Shown here: one piece after another, positions 2,685-20,096 of the stretch | Position numbering within the stretch: the stretch's first letter is position 1 | How the letters are laid out: every line of letters starts with the position of its first letter | Source: Candidatus Nanoarchaeia archaeon | GTDB taxonomy: Archaea > Nanobdellota > Nanobdellia > Woesearchaeales > JANQNE01 | NCBI GenBank assembly: GCA_028279725.1 | Contig: JANQNE010000002.1 | Location: 1 to 64,000 of the forward strand | Direction of reading: 5' to 3' | DNA: 64,000 nt | Made by a program: the position numbers and the translations under genes | The notes under the pieces: model-generated | What the model saw: the letters and a program-made list of their open reading frames with translations, nothing else | What the model was told of the DNA's origin: nothing | Databases searched by the model: none

Positions 2685-5600
2685 ATGAGAAAGATAAAAG
2701 CAATGGCATTGGTTATCGGAATCGTTCTTGTGCTTAGCATGGGCAGTGCTGTCGCAGCTCCAAAGTATAACTGGAACTGGATAGGTGAGATGCTGCTTAA
2801 TCTTTCTGGTGAGATCGCTGAGATAAAAGAGACTACAGCAGAGACTATCGATATCGTTAAGGATACACAGGATATACTGAATGAGGATATCTACCCTGAG
2901 ATAGCTGAAAACAGGGCTATATTGGATGCTGTCATAGAAAGAGAAGAGACTGCGTGGAATAAATTAGTGGAGATGGATCAGAAGGCGGATGAACATTATG
3001 CTCAGCTTGTAGAAAATCAGGAGAAGTTAGATGATGCTGATGATGAGGTGCTGGAGGAATTACAGGGCCAGAAGAAAGAGATAGCAGATATGAGGATGGA
3101 TATCGATGAAAAGCTAAGCGAGATATCTTCCAGTGTACAGCCAAGCCTTTTGGCTATACATGAAGACATTACAGAACTGAGGGGAGAAATAGGTGATAGT
3201 GAAGAGGTGATAGTTCTATTACATGAACTAGAGGAGGAGATGCTTAATCTTGACTCTGATATCGTAAATATGAGAGAGGTAGATGATGACAGGTATGCTC
3301 TGATAAATGGCAGACTGGATGAGATATCTGATAGTATGGGAAAGATCGACAGGATAGACAAGAATACAAAGAAGATAAAGAAAAGCGTCAATAGTGTCAA
3401 GAAATATCTTAAAGGAGATATAACAGAGATCCTGAAGAATATAGACAATACAACTGTCCAGACAAAGGAAAGTGTTGAGGAAGTTAATGAAAAGCTGAAT
3501 GCGATAAGAGATTATCTGCACTATACAGTATATCCTGAAATAGAGGAGAATAAGCAGAGGCTGGATGAGATAGTTGCGAAGCAGGAGATAGCATGGAATG
3601 ATATAGTATATGTCAAGAATAAGGTTGATGAGAACGGAAATGAGATAGCTTCTAATAAAGATGCTGTGCTGAATATGGAGAAGGAGATCGTTGAGCAGCT
3701 TTATGTGAATGAGATCACTATCAAGCAGATGGACGGCAGTGTTTCTGAGCTTCTTGGTGAGCTTAGCTTGAGTGTTATGGCAAGATTTGATGAGTTTAAT
3801 GTAGATATCATAGCAGTGAAGTCTAAGCTGAACCAGATAAAGTCTGATACTGAAGGGATAGGAGCTTCGCAGGATGAGATCAGGGAGTCATTGGCAGAAC
3901 TTCAGGGTGATATGGATAAGGTTGATCTTAATCTTGACAGTATATTAAGATATACAAGCTCGCTGTTTGATCTTTTAGATTGTGAGAATGAAGAGAGTGT
4001 TATGTGTGATAAGCTTGATGAGCTTAGCGAATCTGTGAATAGTGTGAATGCAAATACACAAGAGCTTAAAGAAGGTCAGATAACTATCAAGAACTATGTT
4101 GACGGATTAGAGGAAGCTGATACAGAGATAAAGGACAGGCTTGAATATCTGGGAAAATCATTCAACTGCGAGAGTGCAGTTCCGAATGATGTATGCTTTA
4201 GATTAACACTTCTTGAAAACTATCTTGAGAATCTGGGAGAAGATTCAGCTGCGATAGCAGAATATGCAGAGACATTAGAAGATATAAAACTGGATCTTGA
4301 AGGAAAGATCGATGTTGTTATTGCTAAAGCAGATGAAGCTAAGTTTGAGACAGAGACAATAAAACAGGCAGTCAATGAACTGCTGTATGTTACAGATGAG
4401 AATTTTGAGAGTGTGAATGGAAAGCTTGATCTTCTGGAAGCAGAGGTAAGAGAGATAACGACGAGCGGAATCAAGCTTGATTTTGATACTTTCTTAGTGC
4501 TGGAGGATATATTAGCTCTTGTAGGAGATGCAAGCGTGAAGGTAGATAATATCGATAATTATATGAGCGGAGAGCTTAAAGAAGAGATAATACAGGTTAT
4601 AGTTGAAGAGAGTGAGGATGTGAAAGAGATAGTACAGGAAGAAAGTGAAGAAGTGAAGGAAGCTGTAGAAGAAGCTAAGGAAGAAGTTGTTGAAGCAGTT
4701 GAAGAGAATACTGAAGAGATTATAGAGAAGATAAATGAAAGCACTGAGGAGATCGTGGAAAAGGTTGAAGAGGAAAGTGAAGAAGTGAAAGAAGCTGTTG
4801 AGGAAGCTAAAGAGGAAGTTGTTGAAGTTGTTGAGTTTGAAGCAGATAAGACAAGAGAAGAGCTTATGGCTGAGATAAAAGACAGTGCTGATAGTGTTAC
4901 AGCAGCACTTAATGAAAACAGCGGAAAGCTTGACGGAATACTGCAGAACTGGGGAATCAATGATGTGTCTAATATAATGGAGAAATTAGAAGATAATATG
5001 GAGATGATCGTCAATCTGCATAATGTGTTGGTTGTGCTTAATGAGACTGAGAAGGTAAGGTATGAGGAATCACAAGGTGTGATAAATTCAATAAAGGAAT
5101 GGACAGGGTTGTTTGATAATACAGCAGAGAACAATTTCAATGCTGTCCAAGACAGTATAAATGGACTGGAGGATAAATTGATAGAGACATTAGAGCTGAA
5201 CAACGAGATATTGGATAATGTGTATGAATTTGGAGAGAATGATCTGGTTTATGATGATATTGCTGACCTTATAGCACAGAATGCTCAGATATTAAATATT
5301 GTCGAGGAGATGAATCTTACTACAGCAGAGATAAAGGATAAGATTAATGCGATAGAGACTTCACTTGATGATGTGGATGCAGAGATAGATGAGCTGAAAC
5401 AAGGATGGAATGCAGACAGTGAAGAGAAGATACTTGGCAGGCTGAGCATAATAGAAGCTAAGATAGATTATCTGAATGTGAGCGAGAATACAAGCGATCT
5501 TGCTGAGCTGGTCGAATTGGTGAGAGAGGAGATCGGTTTTGCTGGAAAATCTGTGAATGTATATGATATGATGGTTGAGCTGGAGAGCAAGATAGTTGAT

Positions 5601-10280: not shown

Positions 10281-10298
10281 CTGTTAGAGGTGAGGGTT

Positions 10299-10877
10299 AT
10301 GTTTCATAAAAAGAAGATAATGTTAATTCTGTTCATGGTTGTAGTATTCTCTGTCTTTGTTGTTGCGAGCAAGGTGATAAAAGAGGAGACTAAAGTTATC
10401 TCTGACAAAGTTCAGGAGGTAGAGGATTGTGAGTATATTTCCTGGCAGGAAGAAGTTTCTGCTTATGGGATCTGTGTTCAGGAATATGCTGAAGTGATCT
10501 GTGATGATGAGCCTCTTAATGAAAGCTGCAGTGATGTGATAAGGAAGATAAATTATACATGTGCGAATGGCACTGAGATTGTTGAGAAGACAGATAAGAA
10601 GTGTGATAAGAAAGCAGTTCTTGTTAATGATATTGTTAAAGTTGATACTTCTGAATATGAATGTTCGACTACAGAAGAAGGAAATGATGTAGTTGTTGTA
10701 TGCGACAGCAAGTATGACGGCAATGGTGATGGGGAGTGTAGTTCTGGTGAGAGCTGCATGAAGTTTGTTGTTGATGGAGATAAGTATCAGAAGTATGAGA
10801 AGAACTCAAGGGATGATTTTGTCTCATCTGATGATAGCTTTTTCTTAGAAAAGGCATCTGTGGAGGTGCTAAAATGA
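10299..10877 (+). CDS. Secreted Cys/Asp-rich hypothetical protein
   Basis: MFHKKKIMLILFMVVVFSVFVVASKVI signal/TM; SD AGAGGTGAG favours ATG 10299 over GTG 10290. Confidence 0.7.
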   Translation: MFHKKKIMLILFMVVVFSVFVVASKVIKEETKVISDKVQEVEDCEYISWQEEVSAYGICVQEYAEVICDDEPLNESCSDVIRKINYTCANGTEIVEKTDKKCDKKAVLVNDIVKVDTSEYECSTTEEGNDVVVVCDSKYDGNGDGECSSGESCMKFVVDGDKYQKYEKNSRDDFVSSDDSFFLEKASVEVLK

Positions 10878-12062: not shown

Positions 12063-12593
12063 ATGAAAGAAGCTCAGCTGAAACAACTGATCGTAATTGT
12101 GTTCTTTTTGTTAGTTTTTTCAGTTGTAGTTATTGCTTTGAATGTTACTGGGGTTGATGGTGTGAATAATCTAAAATCAGATCTTGCTGCAATAGTCGGA
12201 GGGAAGAATATCTTTTCAGATTCATACACTGTAAAATACCTTGATCATCACAGGAATTTATCTGATGTTGAATTCAAGGAAGTTAGTGATGAAGGAAGTT
12301 CTGCATCATTGAAAAAAGGAAATGCTGAGGGCAAGATTGAGGGATTTGTTCTTGATGGAAAGAAATATGCAGTCCATCTTGTTGGGTGCGATCATGAAGG
12401 AGATACCTGCAATATAAGAGTAAATGGGATGCTGGTGAAAGATATTCCAGCAGATCAGGAGACGATAATCCCTTTAGCTGGAGATCATAAGATTGTAGTT
12501 AAGAAAATAGAGCTTGATTACTGCGATGAAAGAGAAGTGTGCGATTATATGTTTCAAGCGTATGATAGAGTAGATGTAGAGGTGTTAGGATGA
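12063..12593 (+). CDS. Membrane-anchored secreted hypothetical protein
   Basis: N-terminal TM QLIVIVFFLLVFSVVVIALNV; 176 aa; adjacent same-strand genes. Confidence 0.7.
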   Translation: MKEAQLKQLIVIVFFLLVFSVVVIALNVTGVDGVNNLKSDLAAIVGGKNIFSDSYTVKYLDHHRNLSDVEFKEVSDEGSSASLKKGNAEGKIEGFVLDGKKYAVHLVGCDHEGDTCNIRVNGMLVKDIPADQETIIPLAGDHKIVVKKIELDYCDEREVCDYMFQAYDRVDVEVLG

Positions 12594-12820
12594 CTGCAGC
12601 TCTTGCAAGGCTTTCTATAGCAAATTTAGACAATGATAACTATCAGGATGTTGTTGTTGGCTATTTAGTTGATGATGAGGATGATGGATGGATCAGTGCT
12701 GTTGGCAAGAACTGGTGGGGGAATACCAAAGAGAAGTGGAAGAAGAATATTGGTTATAAGGTGTTGGCGAATCCTTCTATCTTAGAAACTTATGAAGAAG
12801 TAAGGGGTGAGAATTTATGA
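12590..12820 (+). pseudogene. Truncated FG-GAP/VCBS repeat gene fragment, near-duplicate of 14206-14400
   Basis: TAALARLSIANLDNDNYQDVVVGYLVDDEDDGWISAVGKNWWGNTKEKWKKNIGYKVLANPSI matches the 908 aa ORF with one substitution (L/P); homology ends at about 12782. Confidence 0.75.
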
Positions 12821-12821
12821 T

Positions 12822-13130
12822 TTATTTTTTACGTTGTTTAACTTTTTTGATAATCCAATCTCCTCCAAAGAAAACTATTAATGAGGTGATAATCGGTAAG
12901 ATGAATGTATAACTCATAAAATAATATTTATCCAAGAAATTGTTTTCAAAATAAGTTATTTCACACTTAATGTCTATCTTACCACCTAATGGACATTTAA
13001 GATTTGGATTTGGGTTACATGAACTTTTACATGACATGATCTCCATTTGACCTAATAAATTTATGAAAAGAAATGATAAAACAAAAATTAACACAAAAAT
13101 CCCAATTTTTTTGAGGTTTTGATTACCCAT
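12822..13130 (-). CDS. Small two-TM membrane protein with CxxxC/C motifs
   Basis: 102 aa, N-term and C-term hydrophobic helices, MSCKSSCNPNPNLKCPLGGKIDIKC loop. Confidence 0.6.
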   Translation of the reverse strand: MGNQNLKKIGIFVLIFVLSFLFINLLGQMEIMSCKSSCNPNPNLKCPLGGKIDIKCEITYFENNFLDKYYFMSYTFILPIITSLIVFFGGDWIIKKVKQRKK

Positions 13131-13171
13131 AAGTGTATATTAATGGTTTTAATATAAAAACTTTACTAAAA

Positions 13172-15859
13172 ATGATGAAAAATTCAAAAATTACTCGATT
13201 AGAACTCATTTATGTGTTAGTAATTATTAGTCTTGCAACTTTAGCTTACGGCACCGGCATTCCTTACACCCCTAGCCCGGCCCAGGATTATTTGGTTGAT
13301 GGATATGACTCTTTGCCTTTTAAGGATCAAAGAGGTGATGAAAGTTGGTCTTTGAATATTAATACCAATTACGAGCCAGATAGAAATTGGGATACAAATT
13401 TTTATGATAATGCTGGTGGGTCGATATCATATAAATGTCTTAGTTATGCTTCTAGTACTACAAATGATTGGTTTAATCTACAATATGGTATACCTATGAA
13501 TAATTATAGAAGTTATATAAGTGGGAGATATGAAAATGGGACAAATCCTAGGTTTTTAGAAGCGAATTACCACGAAAGTATTAACGGCAATCATTATTCA
13601 TATACTCCTTTATTATACAAATTGAAGGTAATAAGCGCATATAGAGATCCCATAACAAATGAGAGGATCCCTTACAGACTAAAGGGGTACGCTGACACAC
13701 TTACAAATCCTCCTTCAGATTGGATAAATTATGATGATCCTAAACTTTCCAATCCTCAAGAGTTTAATTATACCTATCAAGAAGATTTGTTTAATATTGG
13801 TGAGTTCAAGGAGATATCAATAGATTTGGAAATATTTAGAGGAACTGATGATGAAAACAGATTAAAAGAAGCAATGGAAAAATATGGTGCTCTCCTTAGT
13901 TTTACAGAAAACCTAGAAAGTTCAATTAATATTCATTCAATGGCATTAGTTGGGCATGGCGAAGATGGAAGCGGGACTTATTTTATAGCACATGATAATT
14001 ATGGTTCTGGAGGAAGTGGAGGGTACAGTGAATATAAAAAATTGTACATTGAAGATATTGATCAAGCATTTGCTTTTATTCCAAAGGGTGACTGGCCAAC
14101 ATACCACCATGACAATAGACGTACTGGATTCACTTTATTAAAAGGTGATATGGAAAAGGGAAAGACTCAGAGGAAGGCTATCAATCTGGTGTTGGGAACT
14201 CGAGGTACTACAGCAGCACTTGCTCGTCCGAGTATTGCTAATCTTGATAATGACAACTATCAGGATGTTGTTGTCGGCTATCTTGTTGATGATGAGGATG
14301 ATGGATGGATCAGTGCTGTTGGCAAGAACTGGTGGGGAAATACTAAAGAGAAGTGGAAGAAGAACATTGGTTATAAGGTGTTGGCGAATCCATCTATAGG
14401 GAATTTGGATGATGATAAAGAACTTGAAGTTATTGTTGGATTGTATAATGGAACTTTAATATTGATAGATCCTGATGGAAGCAAGGATCCTTATATGACA
14501 GGCTATACTGTTGATAAAAAGTATTCTGCTATTGGCGGAAGTGATGTAAGGGGAAGATTGGGTTTTACTGCGATAGCTAACCTAGATAATGAAGGAAGAA
14601 ATGAGATCATATTTGCTGACAATAGTTATAATTATGACTGGAACGGAACTTTGTATGTTTTGGGTTATGAAGGCAATAATCTTGTAGAGAAAGATATGAT
14701 AAACTTGACTGAAGGTATCGGTGGAGCAGATGGTGGAGCTCATGGTGCTGTAGCTATCGCTGATGTCGATAATGATGATAAAGAAGAGATTGTTGTGCCA
14801 GGATTCTATGGGATAAAAGTCTATGATTATGATTCTGGAACTTTGAGCCTCAAGTGTAATAACACTCATTCCTATATCAGCGCTGCTCCTGTTATATATG
14901 ATATTGATAGAGATAATGAATACGAGATAATCTATACTACAGCTGATTATGACTGTGATTATGGAGGCTGTTCTAATAACCTATATGTTATAGATGCTGA
15001 TTCCTGCACTGAAGAGAAAACTAAAAGCCTGGATATCTATTCATTGGTATCTCCTGCTATAGCTAATTTTGATTCTGATTCAAACCTAGAAATTATAATC
15101 CTGGGGAGGACTGCTGAATACGGAGATTATGATGAAGTGCAGCTTTTTGAATATGGAAGCAGCATAACTGAAGAATGGACTTATCCAAAATCAGGAAGCA
15201 TACAGCTTGTAGATAGTGCTCCTAATATTGTCGATATCGATGGAGATGGAGATTATGAGATCATAATCGCAAGCACTACTTCAAGCATAATGATACTAAA
15301 TAATACTGGAGAGATATTTGACGAATTTGATGTTGAAGGAACTATAGGCAGCACTCCTGTTATAGGGGACCTTAGCGGGAAAGGAGTTGCAGAGCTTACT
15401 GTCAAAAGATCTGGCTCTCCGGTAAATATCTTAACAACACTGACTGGAACAAACCGCATGCCTGAACTAAATCAAATAGGTGATATAACTGCAATAGCAG
15501 GAGATTTGATTAACATAAACGCTTCTGGACAAGTGGCTGCAACAGACCCAGATGGAGATAATACCACTATCTATTACAGCTCACCTCTCAATGAGTCTGG
15601 GCTGTGGCAGACTACTGTCAATGACACAGGAAATTATTCAATATTGGTGGAAGCTAGTGATGGGAATTTGTCAGATTATCAGTATGTTGATATCACTGTA
15701 TTCAGCAATGAAACTACTTTATCAAATACTTTTGCAGATAATACGACCAAAAAACTATTGAATTTCACAGGAACAGAAAATAAAACAATTACGATAAGGC
15801 TACCAAAAGATGCCTGGGTTATCCATACGAAGATGAAAGTGGAGGGGATGGCACCGTGA
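13172..15859 (+). CDS. Secreted papain-like (C1/C39-type) peptidase domain fused to FG-GAP/VCBS beta-propeller
   Basis: Signal peptide after MMKNSKITRLELIYVLVIISLATLAYG; candidate triad KCLSYASSTTNDWF / HSMALVGHGEDGSGTYFIAHDNYG; then WPTYHHDNRRTGF and repeated DxDxD FG-GAP repeats. Confidence 0.7.
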   Translation: MMKNSKITRLELIYVLVIISLATLAYGTGIPYTPSPAQDYLVDGYDSLPFKDQRGDESWSLNINTNYEPDRNWDTNFYDNAGGSISYKCLSYASSTTNDWFNLQYGIPMNNYRSYISGRYENGTNPRFLEANYHESINGNHYSYTPLLYKLKVISAYRDPITNERIPYRLKGYADTLTNPPSDWINYDDPKLSNPQEFNYTYQEDLFNIGEFKEISIDLEIFRGTDDENRLKEAMEKYGALLSFTENLESSINIHSMALVGHGEDGSGTYFIAHDNYGSGGSGGYSEYKKLYIEDIDQAFAFIPKGDWPTYHHDNRRTGFTLLKGDMEKGKTQRKAINLVLGTRGTTAALARPSIANLDNDNYQDVVVGYLVDDEDDGWISAVGKNWWGNTKEKWKKNIGYKVLANPSIGNLDDDKELEVIVGLYNGTLILIDPDGSKDPYMTGYTVDKKYSAIGGSDVRGRLGFTAIANLDNEGRNEIIFADNSYNYDWNGTLYVLGYEGNNLVEKDMINLTEGIGGADGGAHGAVAIADVDNDDKEEIVVPGFYGIKVYDYDSGTLSLKCNNTHSYISAAPVIYDIDRDNEYEIIYTTADYDCDYGGCSNNLYVIDADSCTEEKTKSLDIYSLVSPAIANFDSDSNLEIIILGRTAEYGDYDEVQLFEYGSSITEEWTYPKSGSIQLVDSAPNIVDIDGDGDYEIIIASTTSSIMILNNTGEIFDEFDVEGTIGSTPVIGDLSGKGVAELTVKRSGSPVNILTTLTGTNRMPELNQIGDITAIAGDLININASGQVAATDPDGDNTTIYYSSPLNESGLWQTTVNDTGNYSILVEASDGNLSDYQYVDITVFSNETTLSNTFADNTTKKLLNFTGTENKTITIRLPKDAWVIHTKMKVEGMAP

Positions 15860-18681
15860 AAATAATGAAATTATTAGTATTTGGAATAATCATCTCAATC
15901 CTCAGTATTTCCTCACTTGCTGATCAAAATCTTGTAGAAAGAAAGGCTAGGCTTAACATATATACTACTGATAATGAAAATGAATTTGTTGCTCAGCTGT
16001 ATGCAAAGCCTGTCAATATGAAAGATATTAACGGAGAGTTCAGGCCTTATGAAGAAGTTACTAAATTTTATGAAGATAATGATGAGCTAGTTCTAGAATG
16101 GAACAATAAAAGTGTGAAACTGAAGATCTATACTATTGATGATAATAAGAAGTTTTTGAAATCTCTTTCCCAGGAAGAAAAGAACAATCTTAAGTTTAAA
16201 ACAAAAATAAAAAAAGAAAGAGGAAGCTATTACTACACCCATAACCTCAGTAAATCAAAACAGCCAGAAGCAGTTGGTTATGATGTAGTGACAGAGAATG
16301 TTGACTGTATAAAGAGAGGCTTTGACCTTATCTGCGGTGAGCAGAGGATAAGCTTCAATGATGCTGTTTATCTACAAAACCTGACAGTTAATCTCTCAGA
16401 TGATAAAGTTGAGTTTTCAGGTGATGACCTTAGCTATATAGACCCTTCAGTAGATCTGGATATTGATGATATTTCAGAGACTACAGGCTATGTAAAACGA
16501 AGACATACAGATAACTATTATTATGGATATTATACTGAGACTGGATTTAAGGTAGGACATGATTATAGCGGCTCTAAATACTGCAGAGGATATATGAACT
16601 GGTCTCTTGATGATATAAATACTTCCTGGGAAATAACAGATGTTAAGCTTACATGGAATGATTACAAGGAAGAGGGTACTGAGGATACAGTTAAATTTTA
16701 TAAGATGGTCCAGACAGATCTTAGTGACTGGACTCCTAGTGATCAGCAAGGGAGAGAGGATCTGTATGATGCAATAGGGGACAGTACTAATTACTACACA
16801 GATTCTTCTCCAGATGAAGATGAATATAATGTAGCTGAGCTTGGCTCTTCAGCTGCTTCGCAGATGAATTCTGATAAAAGCAACGGATATGGATTCTATA
16901 TCGGAGTTAAGGGTGGAGAAGGAAATGAAGAGACAAGAGTTGGAATAGATATAAAAGATCCTTCGTATCCTGCTTATCTGAATCTGACTTATGTTTTTGC
17001 TGATCTAACTCCTCCAAACACTACTGCAAATGCCACTTCACCTCCGAATGGATCAGGATATGCTTTTGGAAATGCAACAGCAGAATATGTAGGGATAACA
17101 TTTTCCTGCACTGATAATGGAGGGCCTGGAAATGCTTCTGGATGTGATACTACATATTATTGCACAGATACAAATAATACATGCACACCGGATAGTGTAT
17201 ATTCATCGCAATTTACCATTTATAGTCATGGTACAACATACTTGAGATTTCACAGTGAGGACATCAAAGGAAATGATGAAACAGTGCAGAACAAAATAGT
17301 AATAATCGACAGAAGCCCTAATGTTTCGAGTATGATGGTCCTCCCTTTGAATCCTACTGCAGGAGATGATCTATTCTGCAACTATTCTTTTTCAAGCCCT
17401 GGGAGCTATAATGAGAAAGATTCAACTTATGACTGGAAGAAAAATGGAGTTAGTCAGGGTATCAACTCCCAAGTTATTAGGAAAGAAAACCTTACTATTG
17501 GAGATAATTGGTCATGTGAATTTACTCCGAGCAATGGGTTAGCGAATGGGACTAAAGGGATAAGTCCTAATGTGACTATACTTGGAACTATAAAAAATCC
17601 TAAAATATATGTTGGGAGTACTTTAGTCTGGAATTCAAGCGGTTATTATAGTGATGAGGAAATGATAACTGGATTTGCAGATGAGATAAATTCAGAAATA
17701 ATTGATTGTATTCCAGATGCTGAAGGTTATTGCAATATTTCAATAACATTCAGCTCAGAAGACAGCGGAAAGCTGAATATCTCAGAGGTCAGTACATACC
17801 ATAGGTCAAGAAGAGAGACTTTGAATGTGACTTCGATAAAGCTGATACATTCTGATGGAACAGATCATATATTTGAGATTGTAGTAGAGAATGATGGGGA
17901 TATAACCTTGGATAATATCTCCTGGGCATTTGATACTGATGATGGAACTATGATCTATAGCGATCAAAACATGGCATTGCAGCCTGGAGAGGATGTATTT
18001 GTATATCTGAGGCATAACTATAGCTTAGCGGGTGATCTTGATGTAACTCTAAATGTTACGTCTGGAAATATCTCAGCTTCAAGGACTGAGGAGGTTCATA
18101 TAGGTGATCTTATGATCACAAACTTCAGCGAGATTCATCAGAATGGCACATTGAGTGTGTTTGAATTTTATATACAAAATACAGGAAGTTCTAATCTTAC
18201 TGGGATAAACTGGAGCCTTGATACTGGGGATGCTGTAATAAATTCAAATGAGCTGATAGATCTTACAGCAAATGAGGCAGCTATGGTCTATGTTGAATAT
18301 AATTATACTCAATATGGCACTTTTACAGCGGAAGCATCTTCTACAGACGGATTTTACTACGATAGTAAGTCTATTACAGTTGATGCTTTGCTTGTGGATA
18401 CATCAGACTTGAGTTTGCTGCATAATGCTAGTACTCATAATGTATTCTTCTTTAAGATCACGAATAAGTATCAGGCGGCATTATCAGACATCAACTGGAC
18501 TTTTGATACTGATGATGGTGTTGTGATAAGCGCAAATCAGCTTTTTAACCTTACGCCAGATGAAGAGATCTTTGTAATGCTGGAGCATAATTTTTCTTCT
18601 TCAGGAAGCTACAATGTAAATGCAACAGCGATCTATGATGGGTTTGAAGATTGGTCAAACTATACCTTTACAATCAGTTAA
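15856..18681 (+). CDS. Secreted multidomain protein with CARDB-like repeats
   Basis: Signal peptide; repeats NDGDITLDNISWAFDTDDGTMI / NTGSSNLTGINWSLDTGDAVI / NKYQAALSDINWTFDTDDGVVI; ATGA-type overlap with previous gene. Confidence 0.8.
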   Translation: MKIMKLLVFGIIISILSISSLADQNLVERKARLNIYTTDNENEFVAQLYAKPVNMKDINGEFRPYEEVTKFYEDNDELVLEWNNKSVKLKIYTIDDNKKFLKSLSQEEKNNLKFKTKIKKERGSYYYTHNLSKSKQPEAVGYDVVTENVDCIKRGFDLICGEQRISFNDAVYLQNLTVNLSDDKVEFSGDDLSYIDPSVDLDIDDISETTGYVKRRHTDNYYYGYYTETGFKVGHDYSGSKYCRGYMNWSLDDINTSWEITDVKLTWNDYKEEGTEDTVKFYKMVQTDLSDWTPSDQQGREDLYDAIGDSTNYYTDSSPDEDEYNVAELGSSAASQMNSDKSNGYGFYIGVKGGEGNEETRVGIDIKDPSYPAYLNLTYVFADLTPPNTTANATSPPNGSGYAFGNATAEYVGITFSCTDNGGPGNASGCDTTYYCTDTNNTCTPDSVYSSQFTIYSHGTTYLRFHSEDIKGNDETVQNKIVIIDRSPNVSSMMVLPLNPTAGDDLFCNYSFSSPGSYNEKDSTYDWKKNGVSQGINSQVIRKENLTIGDNWSCEFTPSNGLANGTKGISPNVTILGTIKNPKIYVGSTLVWNSSGYYSDEEMITGFADEINSEIIDCIPDAEGYCNISITFSSEDSGKLNISEVSTYHRSRRETLNVTSIKLIHSDGTDHIFEIVVENDGDITLDNISWAFDTDDGTMIYSDQNMALQPGEDVFVYLRHNYSLAGDLDVTLNVTSGNISASRTEEVHIGDLMITNFSEIHQNGTLSVFEFYIQNTGSSNLTGINWSLDTGDAVINSNELIDLTANEAAMVYVEYNYTQYGTFTAEASSTDGFYYDSKSITVDALLVDTSDLSLLHNASTHNVFFFKITNKYQAALSDINWTFDTDDGVVISANQLFNLTPDEEIFVMLEHNFSSSGSYNVNATAIYDGFEDWSNYTFTIS

Positions 18682-18870: not shown

Positions 18871-19503
18871 TTATATTGATTTGTGAAGCTTGTCGAAGTA
18901 TTTTTTTGGGATGTAGAAGTCTTTCTTCAGCCTTTGCATGGTCTCTTCAAGATCGAGGATTGTCCATCTGTCTTTTTGTCTTATCGCTTCGTCAACTATA
19001 ATACTCCAATCAACTTCTGATTTTTTTAAGAGCATCTGGATGTCTGCGTAGTCATTCTCTCTGTTGGTCACGGATTTAAGGATTACCAGATCTTCGATTG
19101 AAATGACCATGACTGTAAGCGTGTAATCTTTCCTTGTGAAATCATGCCTTTCTCTGCTCCTGTCTTTCATCTCTTCTGTAAACTCTGTGCTGAATATATT
19201 CTTTACAAACAGATCAAATCTGGCGTCTCCTCTTTCAAACATTAATGGCTTATCCTTATTTTCAATCCTGTCTTGATCATATACACCTGCAAGCGCTCTT
19301 TTCTTAAATCCAAGCTCATTTATCGCTTTGATAAATACTTTCATATCATCTTCTCTTTCAAATAGTATATCAATGTCTTTTGTAGATTCTTTATATCCAT
19401 AATACATCAGAGCAGTACCTCCAAACGCATAACATACTATGTCTCCTTCTATCTTTGAGCTTACCAATTCAAACAATTCATCCTGTTCTTGTTTTCCAAT
19501 CAT
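18871..19503 (-). CDS. Nucleotidyltransferase-fold protein (AbiEii/DUF6036-like, candidate toxin)
   Basis: FGGTALMYYGYKESTKDIDILFE (GG...DxD), RFDLFV, and IEDLVILKSVTNRENDYADIQMLL. Confidence 0.65.
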   Translation of the reverse strand: MIGKQEQDELFELVSSKIEGDIVCYAFGGTALMYYGYKESTKDIDILFEREDDMKVFIKAINELGFKKRALAGVYDQDRIENKDKPLMFERGDARFDLFVKNIFSTEFTEEMKDRSRERHDFTRKDYTLTVMVISIEDLVILKSVTNRENDYADIQMLLKKSEVDWSIIVDEAIRQKDRWTILDLEETMQRLKKDFYIPKKYFDKLHKSI

Positions 19504-20096
19504 TCTTTTAACCTCTTAAGATCCCCTCTTGAGAAAGGTATCTGGCAATTCCATTCTTTATCTACCATATCTGACTTTTCTTGTGATATCCTTATAGTCT
19601 TTCTTGACTTCTTTGATTTTAACGAATCATAGATATTCTTAGGCATCCTTCTTGTCTTTATGGACCTTCTTGCTAGGTCATATAAGCAGCCCAACTCTAC
19701 CTGTATATCATACTTTTTAGCTAAAAGGCTTAATCTTTTCCAATTTCTTACATGGTTAAACAAAGATAGTGCTGCCAATAATGTCCTTCTGTTTTTCAGC
19801 TTTATCGCATCGATAAGTGCATTTTCTATACCATATTTTCCATGAGCTACATGCTTAAATGAAGGAAATACTTTTATCTTTGAGTATTTGTTGATAATGT
19901 CAAACATTCCTCTGGATTTTGTCTGCTTGTATGTTGTTATCTTGTATATTCTTTTTTGGTCTCTTCCTCCAGATACAGATATATATCCTTGTTTCTTAAG
20001 TTGTGATAATTTATTCAATACACTCTGCCTTTTCAATCTAAGCAGATCACATAATTCTTCAATAGTCCTAAGTCCTTCAATCTTTTTTAAGTCCAT
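19500..20096 (-). CDS. Winged-HTH regulator (AbiEi-like candidate antitoxin)
   Basis: N-term LRTIEELCDLLRLKRQSVLNKLSQLKKQGYISVSGGRDQKRIYKIT wHTH; 4 nt overlap with downstream NTase gene. Confidence 0.65.
   Translation of the reverse strand: MDLKKIEGLRTIEELCDLLRLKRQSVLNKLSQLKKQGYISVSGGRDQKRIYKITTYKQTKSRGMFDIINKYSKIKVFPSFKHVAHGKYGIENALIDAIKLKNRRTLLAALSLFNHVRNWKRLSLLAKKYDIQVELGCLYDLARRSIKTRRMPKNIYDSLKSKKSRKTIRISQEKSDMVDKEWNCQIPFSRGDLKRLKE

Follow-up and report, generated by a model that had tools for sequence, protein, structure and literature searches.

Effector-immunity modules of the type VI secretion system (T6SS) of Vibrio cholerae undergo sequential displacement (PMC5361080), and C-terminal displacement at rhs genes has been reported by Jackson et al. 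2009, as related in PMC5361080. In polymorphic toxin systems, diversity resides in the C-terminal toxin domains, which include papain-like peptidases (Zhang et al. 2012, PMC3482391). The SPEARE proteins of Nanohaloarchaeota are large secreted proteins that carry serine protease and adhesion domains and have been proposed to target other cells (PMC6642349). It is still unclear how small archaea that probably depend on hosts attach to other cells, attack them or compete with them, and annotation is lacking for most of their genes. Here we analyse a propeller gene (13172-15859, plus strand) and its neighbours in a Candidatus Nanoarchaeia archaeon of the order Woesearchaeales, within a stretch of 64,000 nucleotides termed the window (assembly GCA_028279725.1, contig JANQNE010000002.1, positions 1 to 64,000). 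The locus is likely a site of interchangeable N-terminal cassettes, where the orphan open reading frame (ORF) at 12590-12820 would be a remnant and the adjoining papain-type cassette the newer occupant. Recurrent N-terminal cassette displacement at a propeller gene is the larger finding, displacement arrays themselves being already known, and an exchange site with retained old heads points to proteins that turn over fast and opens the way to direct tests. A search of the open-access literature, with most subscription journals outside its scope, found no description of this Woesearchaeales/DPANN system.

Enzyme heads and cassette borders at the propeller gene

The propeller is present in 20 genomes of the order and class, this genome included. 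G000 denotes the genome of the window and other G numbers its relatives, of which those carrying names are Woesearchaeota or Nanoarchaeota metagenome-assembled genomes. Where readable, the N-terminal head belongs to one of three unrelated kinds. Papain-like heads occur in G000, G014, G128, G240-C22 and G352, and S8 subtilase heads in G156, G239, G240-C6, -C18, -C29 and -C34, and G287 (Pfam E down to 1e-45). Phospholipase C (PLC)-like heads are found in G031, G053, G147, G157, G159, G215, G221, G292, G497 and G618, with a displaced one in G128. In the 895-aa protein of the window, the papain-like head with its N-terminal signal/membrane segment comprises residues 1-307 (13172-14092, plus strand) and is followed by the conserved FG-GAP-like propeller and C-terminal part (14093-15859, plus strand), which yields a weak FG-GAP_3 match. 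Cys89, His255 and Asp275 (895-aa numbering) are invariant in an alignment of six papain-like heads, the best PDB profile matches of this head are papain-family proteins (actinidin, ananain, Der p 1) with weak E-values, and Foldseek ranks cathepsins first from a low-confidence model. The PLC-like heads carry the motif HxxxDxxQPxH, and their six best PDB profile matches are all, at a distance, phospholipase C. The structure models are poor, with a predicted local distance difference test (pLDDT) score of 44 for the papain-like and 38 for the PLC-like head, and the fold evidence is accordingly taken as supportive. Pfam and NCBIfam recognise neither the papain and PLC heads nor most of the small genes that accompany them.

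The limits of the exchanged unit emerge from the DNA of five paralogous operons within the genome G240. Their upstream gene is 86-93% identical to about its stop codon, almost no similarity follows over the small gene and the head (1.3-2.1 kb), and between the S8 heads only two similar pieces occur, each below 90 bp. Similarity resumes, within 15 bases, at the first codon of WPTxxHDNRRTGFTLLKGD, after which C22 (papain) as well as C29 and C34 (two S8 kinds) are 91-92% identical. This succession of identity, loss and renewed identity defines the cassette, which on these alignments reaches, with sharp borders, from the end of the upstream gene on the left to the first propeller codon on the right. 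In the window the right border is the codon at 14093, encoding the Trp of WPTYHHDNRRTGFTLLKGD. The left border in relatives corresponds to a conserved upstream gene (12063-12593, plus strand; 176 aa, one N-terminal membrane segment), which has homologues in the same place in G014, G053 and G031 (26-41% identity) and at most other loci, and whose C-terminus is 1-2 residues shorter in the window. G287 and G292, two species of one genus, share the upstream gene (72% identity), the orphan (82%), the propeller (78%) and the downstream PKD protein (73%), whereas the former carries an S8 and the latter a PLC-like head and their small genes are unrelated. The S8-propeller gene of G287 (L078:6016-7541) is split across two or three frames; its head may be inactive through a frame change, or the split may be a sequencing error. 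In G240-C6 the whole unit stands between two copies, 92% identical, of the 3' end of a beta-helix-type gene (L080:257-473 and 5134-5351), as if upstream gene, cassette and propeller had been inserted complete by a similar event.

In the loci compared, a small gene usually precedes the head. It is of the secreted or lipoprotein type with seven of the eight S8 heads and of the membrane type with most PLC-like and papain heads; exceptions are a lipoprotein in G014, a Cys-rich secreted protein in G215, a membrane protein with the S8 head of G240-C34, and G352, where none was seen. G240-C18 and G239-1 carry S8 heads that are 57% identical and group as sisters (support 0.995), and the corresponding propellers, at 34-38% identity, group by genome. 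Since the small lipoproteins of the two loci are also related (35%), a small gene and its head have moved jointly on at least one occasion. Two further loci, L033:2245-6564 (G031) and L086:2930-5997 (G255), contain a multi-segment membrane region resembling the small genes, fused to a PLC-like head in one ORF.

The signal segment, the PKD and propeller partners and the hydrolase heads suggest a surface or extracellular location. By analogy with conflict systems, the protein might be a surface or secreted hydrolase directed at other cells, be they host, prey or rival, and the small gene might encode its inhibitor or immunity partner, a proposal that we put forward tentatively. A direct hint at an inhibitor-like partner comes from the lipoprotein of G240-C6, a stretch of which matches the prodomain of the adjoining S8 head (40% identity, 117 aa); evidence of this kind is limited to that locus and does not extend to the small gene of the window. 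The stretch could also have been left behind by an S8 gene that was displaced. A perfect direct repeat of 142 bp in G240-C29 links the end of the small gene (L118:2339-2869) with the prodomain start of the neighbouring S8 gene (L118:2894-4608) and reads as a very recent duplication or displacement scar. The rival with close to even chances accepts that the head swap is real and assigns it to nutrition or surface maintenance: digestive enzymes would be mounted on a scaffold, and the small genes would serve as chaperones or in self-protection, with no conflict involved. Every head is indeed a general hydrolase, and the prodomain-like stretch of the S8-linked lipoprotein may assist folding as well as inhibit the enzyme. 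Yet arrays, small genes travelling with heads and divergent heads within a genome would by analogy be typical of conflict systems (PMC5361080).

Truncated propeller fragments and their divergence

In the window, the exchange has probably left a direct repeat of 188 bp at 12593-12780 (copy 1, about one propeller blade) and 14210-14397 (copy 2; both plus strand; 88% identity, blastn E 2.6e-65; start-to-start spacing 1617, a multiple of three). Copy 2 lies inside the propeller of the long gene. Copy 1 makes up most of the orphan, an ORF of 76 codons on the plus strand in which a start codon, overlapping the stop of the upstream gene, is joined to a propeller fragment. It begins 34 residues into the conserved propeller domain and is therefore cut at both ends. 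An earlier reading of this DNA, made from the sequence only, had described a diverged repeat of about 190 bp that encodes the same 62 aa with one L/P replacement and many synonymous differences. Its coordinates are correct to within 1-2 bases, and a codon-by-codon comparison reproduces the single replacement, all remaining codon differences among the 62 codons being synonymous. These differences crowd into the first 15 codons, an identical run of 17 codons lies in the middle of the repeat (run-length p ~0.03), and the copies share an identical run of 53 bp.

Truncated propeller fragments precede the main gene in nine genomes (G000, G128, G159, G215, G221, G239, G287, G292 and G497). In every case seen the displaced copies lie upstream, and the exchanged module is N-terminal. 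Cassette arrays are retained in three genomes. G239 displays an S8 head with a 111-residue propeller fragment, a small gene, and an S8 head with the full propeller; in G128 a fragment is followed by PLC plus fragment, papain plus fragment, and papain plus long propeller; and G497 opens with a fragment and a decayed PLC, behind which stand a PLC variant with its fragment (94% to the main copy) and, last, PLC plus full propeller. A free S8 protease gene occupies the usual place of the upstream gene, before the oldest fragment, at L114 and L115 (G128:C21 and G497:C3), and may be an old displaced head or an alternative left anchor.

A headless fragment stands beside the upstream gene in G000, G221, G287 and G292. 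The shared headless start of the G287 and G292 orphans led us to consider a plain, headless propeller as the pre-insertion state. This option was set aside in favour of deletion of a displaced head, because the G221 orphan opens with residues (MKRMVKKWFTRVG) that resemble the beginning of a cassette small gene, suggesting a deletion running from the small gene into the propeller; in the G287/G292 genus a headless pre-insertion propeller may have existed. At seven of ten junctions between an orphan and the next gene, the orphan stop is the TGA of an ATGA, mostly after a G-rich ribosome-binding-like motif, and in G221 orphan and next gene overlap by four bases. The same arrangement, GGGGTGAGAATTTATGA, ends the orphan of the window (12804-12820, plus strand), where the expected next gene is replaced by one on the opposite strand.

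The intact displaced heads in G239 and G128 would also suit a reversible switch, in which either a 1617-bp block is excised or upstream heads enter the expressed gene by recombination and the array serves as a store for phase or antigenic variation. Recombination between the two window copies is predicted to remove 1617 bp and, the spacing being divisible by three, to leave a frame open from 12590 through the propeller to 15859. The excised form, however, would be devoid of papain domain and signal segment, repeats of 64-95% identity across the genomes are a poor substrate for frequent switching, and the displaced head beside the upstream gene has been deleted in four genomes; we thus regard a switch as unlikely.

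The divergence of the copies bears on their origin. For the window pair, the method NG86 yields 0.042 nonsynonymous (dN) and 0.62 synonymous (dS) substitutions per site, and dN/dS is ~0.06. The ratios of other orphan/main pairs, all obtained on short stretches with a simple method, are 0.09 in G239, 0.17 in G159, 0.11 in G215, 0.2 in G128, and 0.07-0.08 in G287 and the newest G497 pair. In a decaying local duplicate, dN/dS is expected near 0.5, the level reached by the oldest G497 fragment. Because the observed ratios are far lower, the copies appear to have diverged mainly as working alleles before they were joined, most simply in different strains or loci, which bears out the earlier proposal that both were under protein-level selection before one was truncated. 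Moreover, identical tracts of 28-42 codons are present in G128, G159, G239 and G287 (p below 1e-4), and another in G497 (p 0.003), so that, with the window pair counted, long tracts characterise five of the seven pairs first tested, plus G497. Such tracts are expected near a crossover or conversion tract, or since recombination needs a patch of identity.

The ratios also bear on a local origin, in which tandem duplication or template switching within the genome produced a second 5' part of the propeller and the one lying upstream is in decay. This explanation dispenses with a donor, and the 142-bp repeat of G240-C29 is a perfect local duplication; yet it predicts a ratio near 0.5, compared to 0.06 here and 0.06-0.2 in most pairs, and leaves the differing heads on conserved flanks unexplained, which renders it improbable. 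An assembly artefact, in which two strain variants of the propeller start ended up in tandem, is very improbable, despite the metagenome-type assembly (1.42 Mb, 12 contigs) and the 53-bp identical run, as eight further genomes, assembled independently, contain comparable fragments and the orphan is bordered on either side by distinct sequence of its own.

Probable cassette displacement at the window locus

Borders, differing heads on conserved flanks, arrays, divergence before joining and identical tracts are read directly from the sequences, whereas homologous recombination, a donor in another strain, the succession of events and the function are inferences. We consider the following cassette mechanism highly probable. 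Each cassette would comprise a small gene for a secreted or membrane protein and, behind it, the N-terminal enzyme head, and would end exactly where the conserved propeller begins. An incoming cassette would bring along a stretch of the donor propeller 5' region, and recombination would combine this 5' part with the resident 3' part into a whole propeller gene with a new head. The old cassette, together with a truncated propeller fragment, would thereby be pushed upstream. Displaced cassettes would then decay, and beside the upstream gene, deletion of small gene and head would join a start codon to the propeller fragment. In the window, 12590-12820 would be such a remnant and 12822-14092 the newer papain-type cassette, with its own diverged propeller start. 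A circular (Campbell) donor and linear homology-facilitated recombination would lead to similar products, and both are compatible with the sequence.

The sequence-only reading had ascribed the repeat to integration of a diverged allele, which left a 5' fragment and created a peptidase-propeller fusion. Integration and fragment are upheld, but the event did not make the fusion. In G014, which belongs to another family of the same order, papain domain, linker and propeller are collinear in a single ORF (identity to the window protein 48% in the N-domain and 55% in the propeller), and a homologue of the upstream gene stands in front; the 5' end of a ready-made fusion therefore arrived in the window. 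Rather than one uniform arrangement, the related genomes display the same kind of event repeated with other enzyme heads and sharp borders, and judged by these comparisons, the window event is one of a recurrent series in Woesearchaeales and relatives.

Several points weigh against cassette displacement as outlined here. The sample contains no close relative of the species from which donor and recipient alleles could be told. The small gene of the window is inverted and has no recognisable kinship to those of other cassettes: it has no other copy in its own genome and does not match the membrane-protein profile of the other cassettes. All genomes compared are drafts or assemblies from metagenomes, the matches that assign heads to papain and PLC are distant, and the roles of these heads are predictions from sequence. 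Finally, the oldest G497 fragment has a dN/dS of ~0.55, old fragments being decayed, and the G215 and G292 pairs, when tested, revealed no identical tract.

Between the repeat copies lie, as had been noted, a minus-strand membrane gene and the papain-like domain. The former (12822-13130, minus strand) encodes 102 aa with two membrane segments and, judged by position and hydropathy, is probably the small gene of the present cassette in inverted orientation. The divergent intergenic region at 13131-13171 is AT-rich, contains TATA-like stretches and is possibly a two-way promoter. Low GC content between the copies had likewise been remarked on, and the values across the locus agree: 0.259 for the minus-strand gene, 0.146 for the intergenic region and 0.337 for the papain domain (the 2.7th percentile among 921-bp windows), compared to 0.384 for the propeller and 0.380 for the window. 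No second propeller locus was found in the 12 contigs of the genome, which thus has a single one.

Downstream of the propeller gene, a PKD protein of 941 aa (15856-18681, plus strand; Pfam PKD E 1.5e-5) continues the conserved operon, and relatives likewise have a PKD-type neighbour behind the propeller. Upstream of the locus (10290-10877) lies the gene of a short secreted protein with a YDGNGDGxCxSGESC stretch; in G239 a protein of this kind, with the same stretch, is encoded downstream of the locus (L083:9280-9876), and it appears to be a further operon member. Just past the operon, on the minus strand (18871-20096), adjacent nucleotidyltransferase-type and helix-turn-helix genes, recognised by eye from their translations, are possibly a toxin-antitoxin-like pair.

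Comparison with known systems

The heads themselves resemble papain-family peptidases, S8 subtilases and zinc-dependent phospholipase C, the papain and PLC matches being distant, and differ from these enzymes in their fusion to the propeller. Like the SPEARE proteins (PMC6642349), the products appear to be large secreted DPANN proteins which combine an enzyme with adhesion-type domains. The window protein has no Pfam match to the laminin-G and type III restriction-like domains of SPEARE proteins, and cassette displacement is not described for the latter in the passages of PMC6642349 consulted.

With polymorphic toxin systems the locus shares one scaffold that bears many unrelated enzyme domains, here papain-like, S8 and PLC-like, next to small adjacent genes. 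In contrast to those systems, diversity is N-terminal and toxicity is putative. An archaeal polymorphic-effector system of reversed polarity, with N-terminal hydrolase heads on a shared propeller scaffold that lineages swap through recombination at the propeller, cognate inhibitors and upstream arrays of replaced heads, used against hosts, prey or rivals, is conceivable by analogy, if rather less than evenly likely. As in Campbell-type integration, the repeat would stem from homology between incoming and resident DNA that had diverged beforehand (dN/dS 0.06 here, 0.06-0.2 in most pairs).

The closest parallels are the T6SS and rhs arrays. In these as in the present locus, a conserved part of the gene is the recombination point, the old module stays adjacent as a truncated or orphan copy, arrays accumulate and small partner genes accompany the modules. 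Accordingly, an exchangeable module with sharp borders is found in the G240 operons and between G287 and G292, and displaced modules with a repeat of the conserved part lie beside the active gene in nine genomes. The T6SS and rhs systems, however, exchange a C-terminal module and place displaced copies downstream, an arrangement absent here, where the exchange affects the N-terminal head and the displaced copies are found on its upstream side. Moreover, the present locus is archaeal, its conserved part is a C-terminal propeller, no known secretion apparatus was identified and the partners are only putative immunity genes. The locus indicates that displacement by recombination can operate on either end of a gene, the 5' as well as the 3'.

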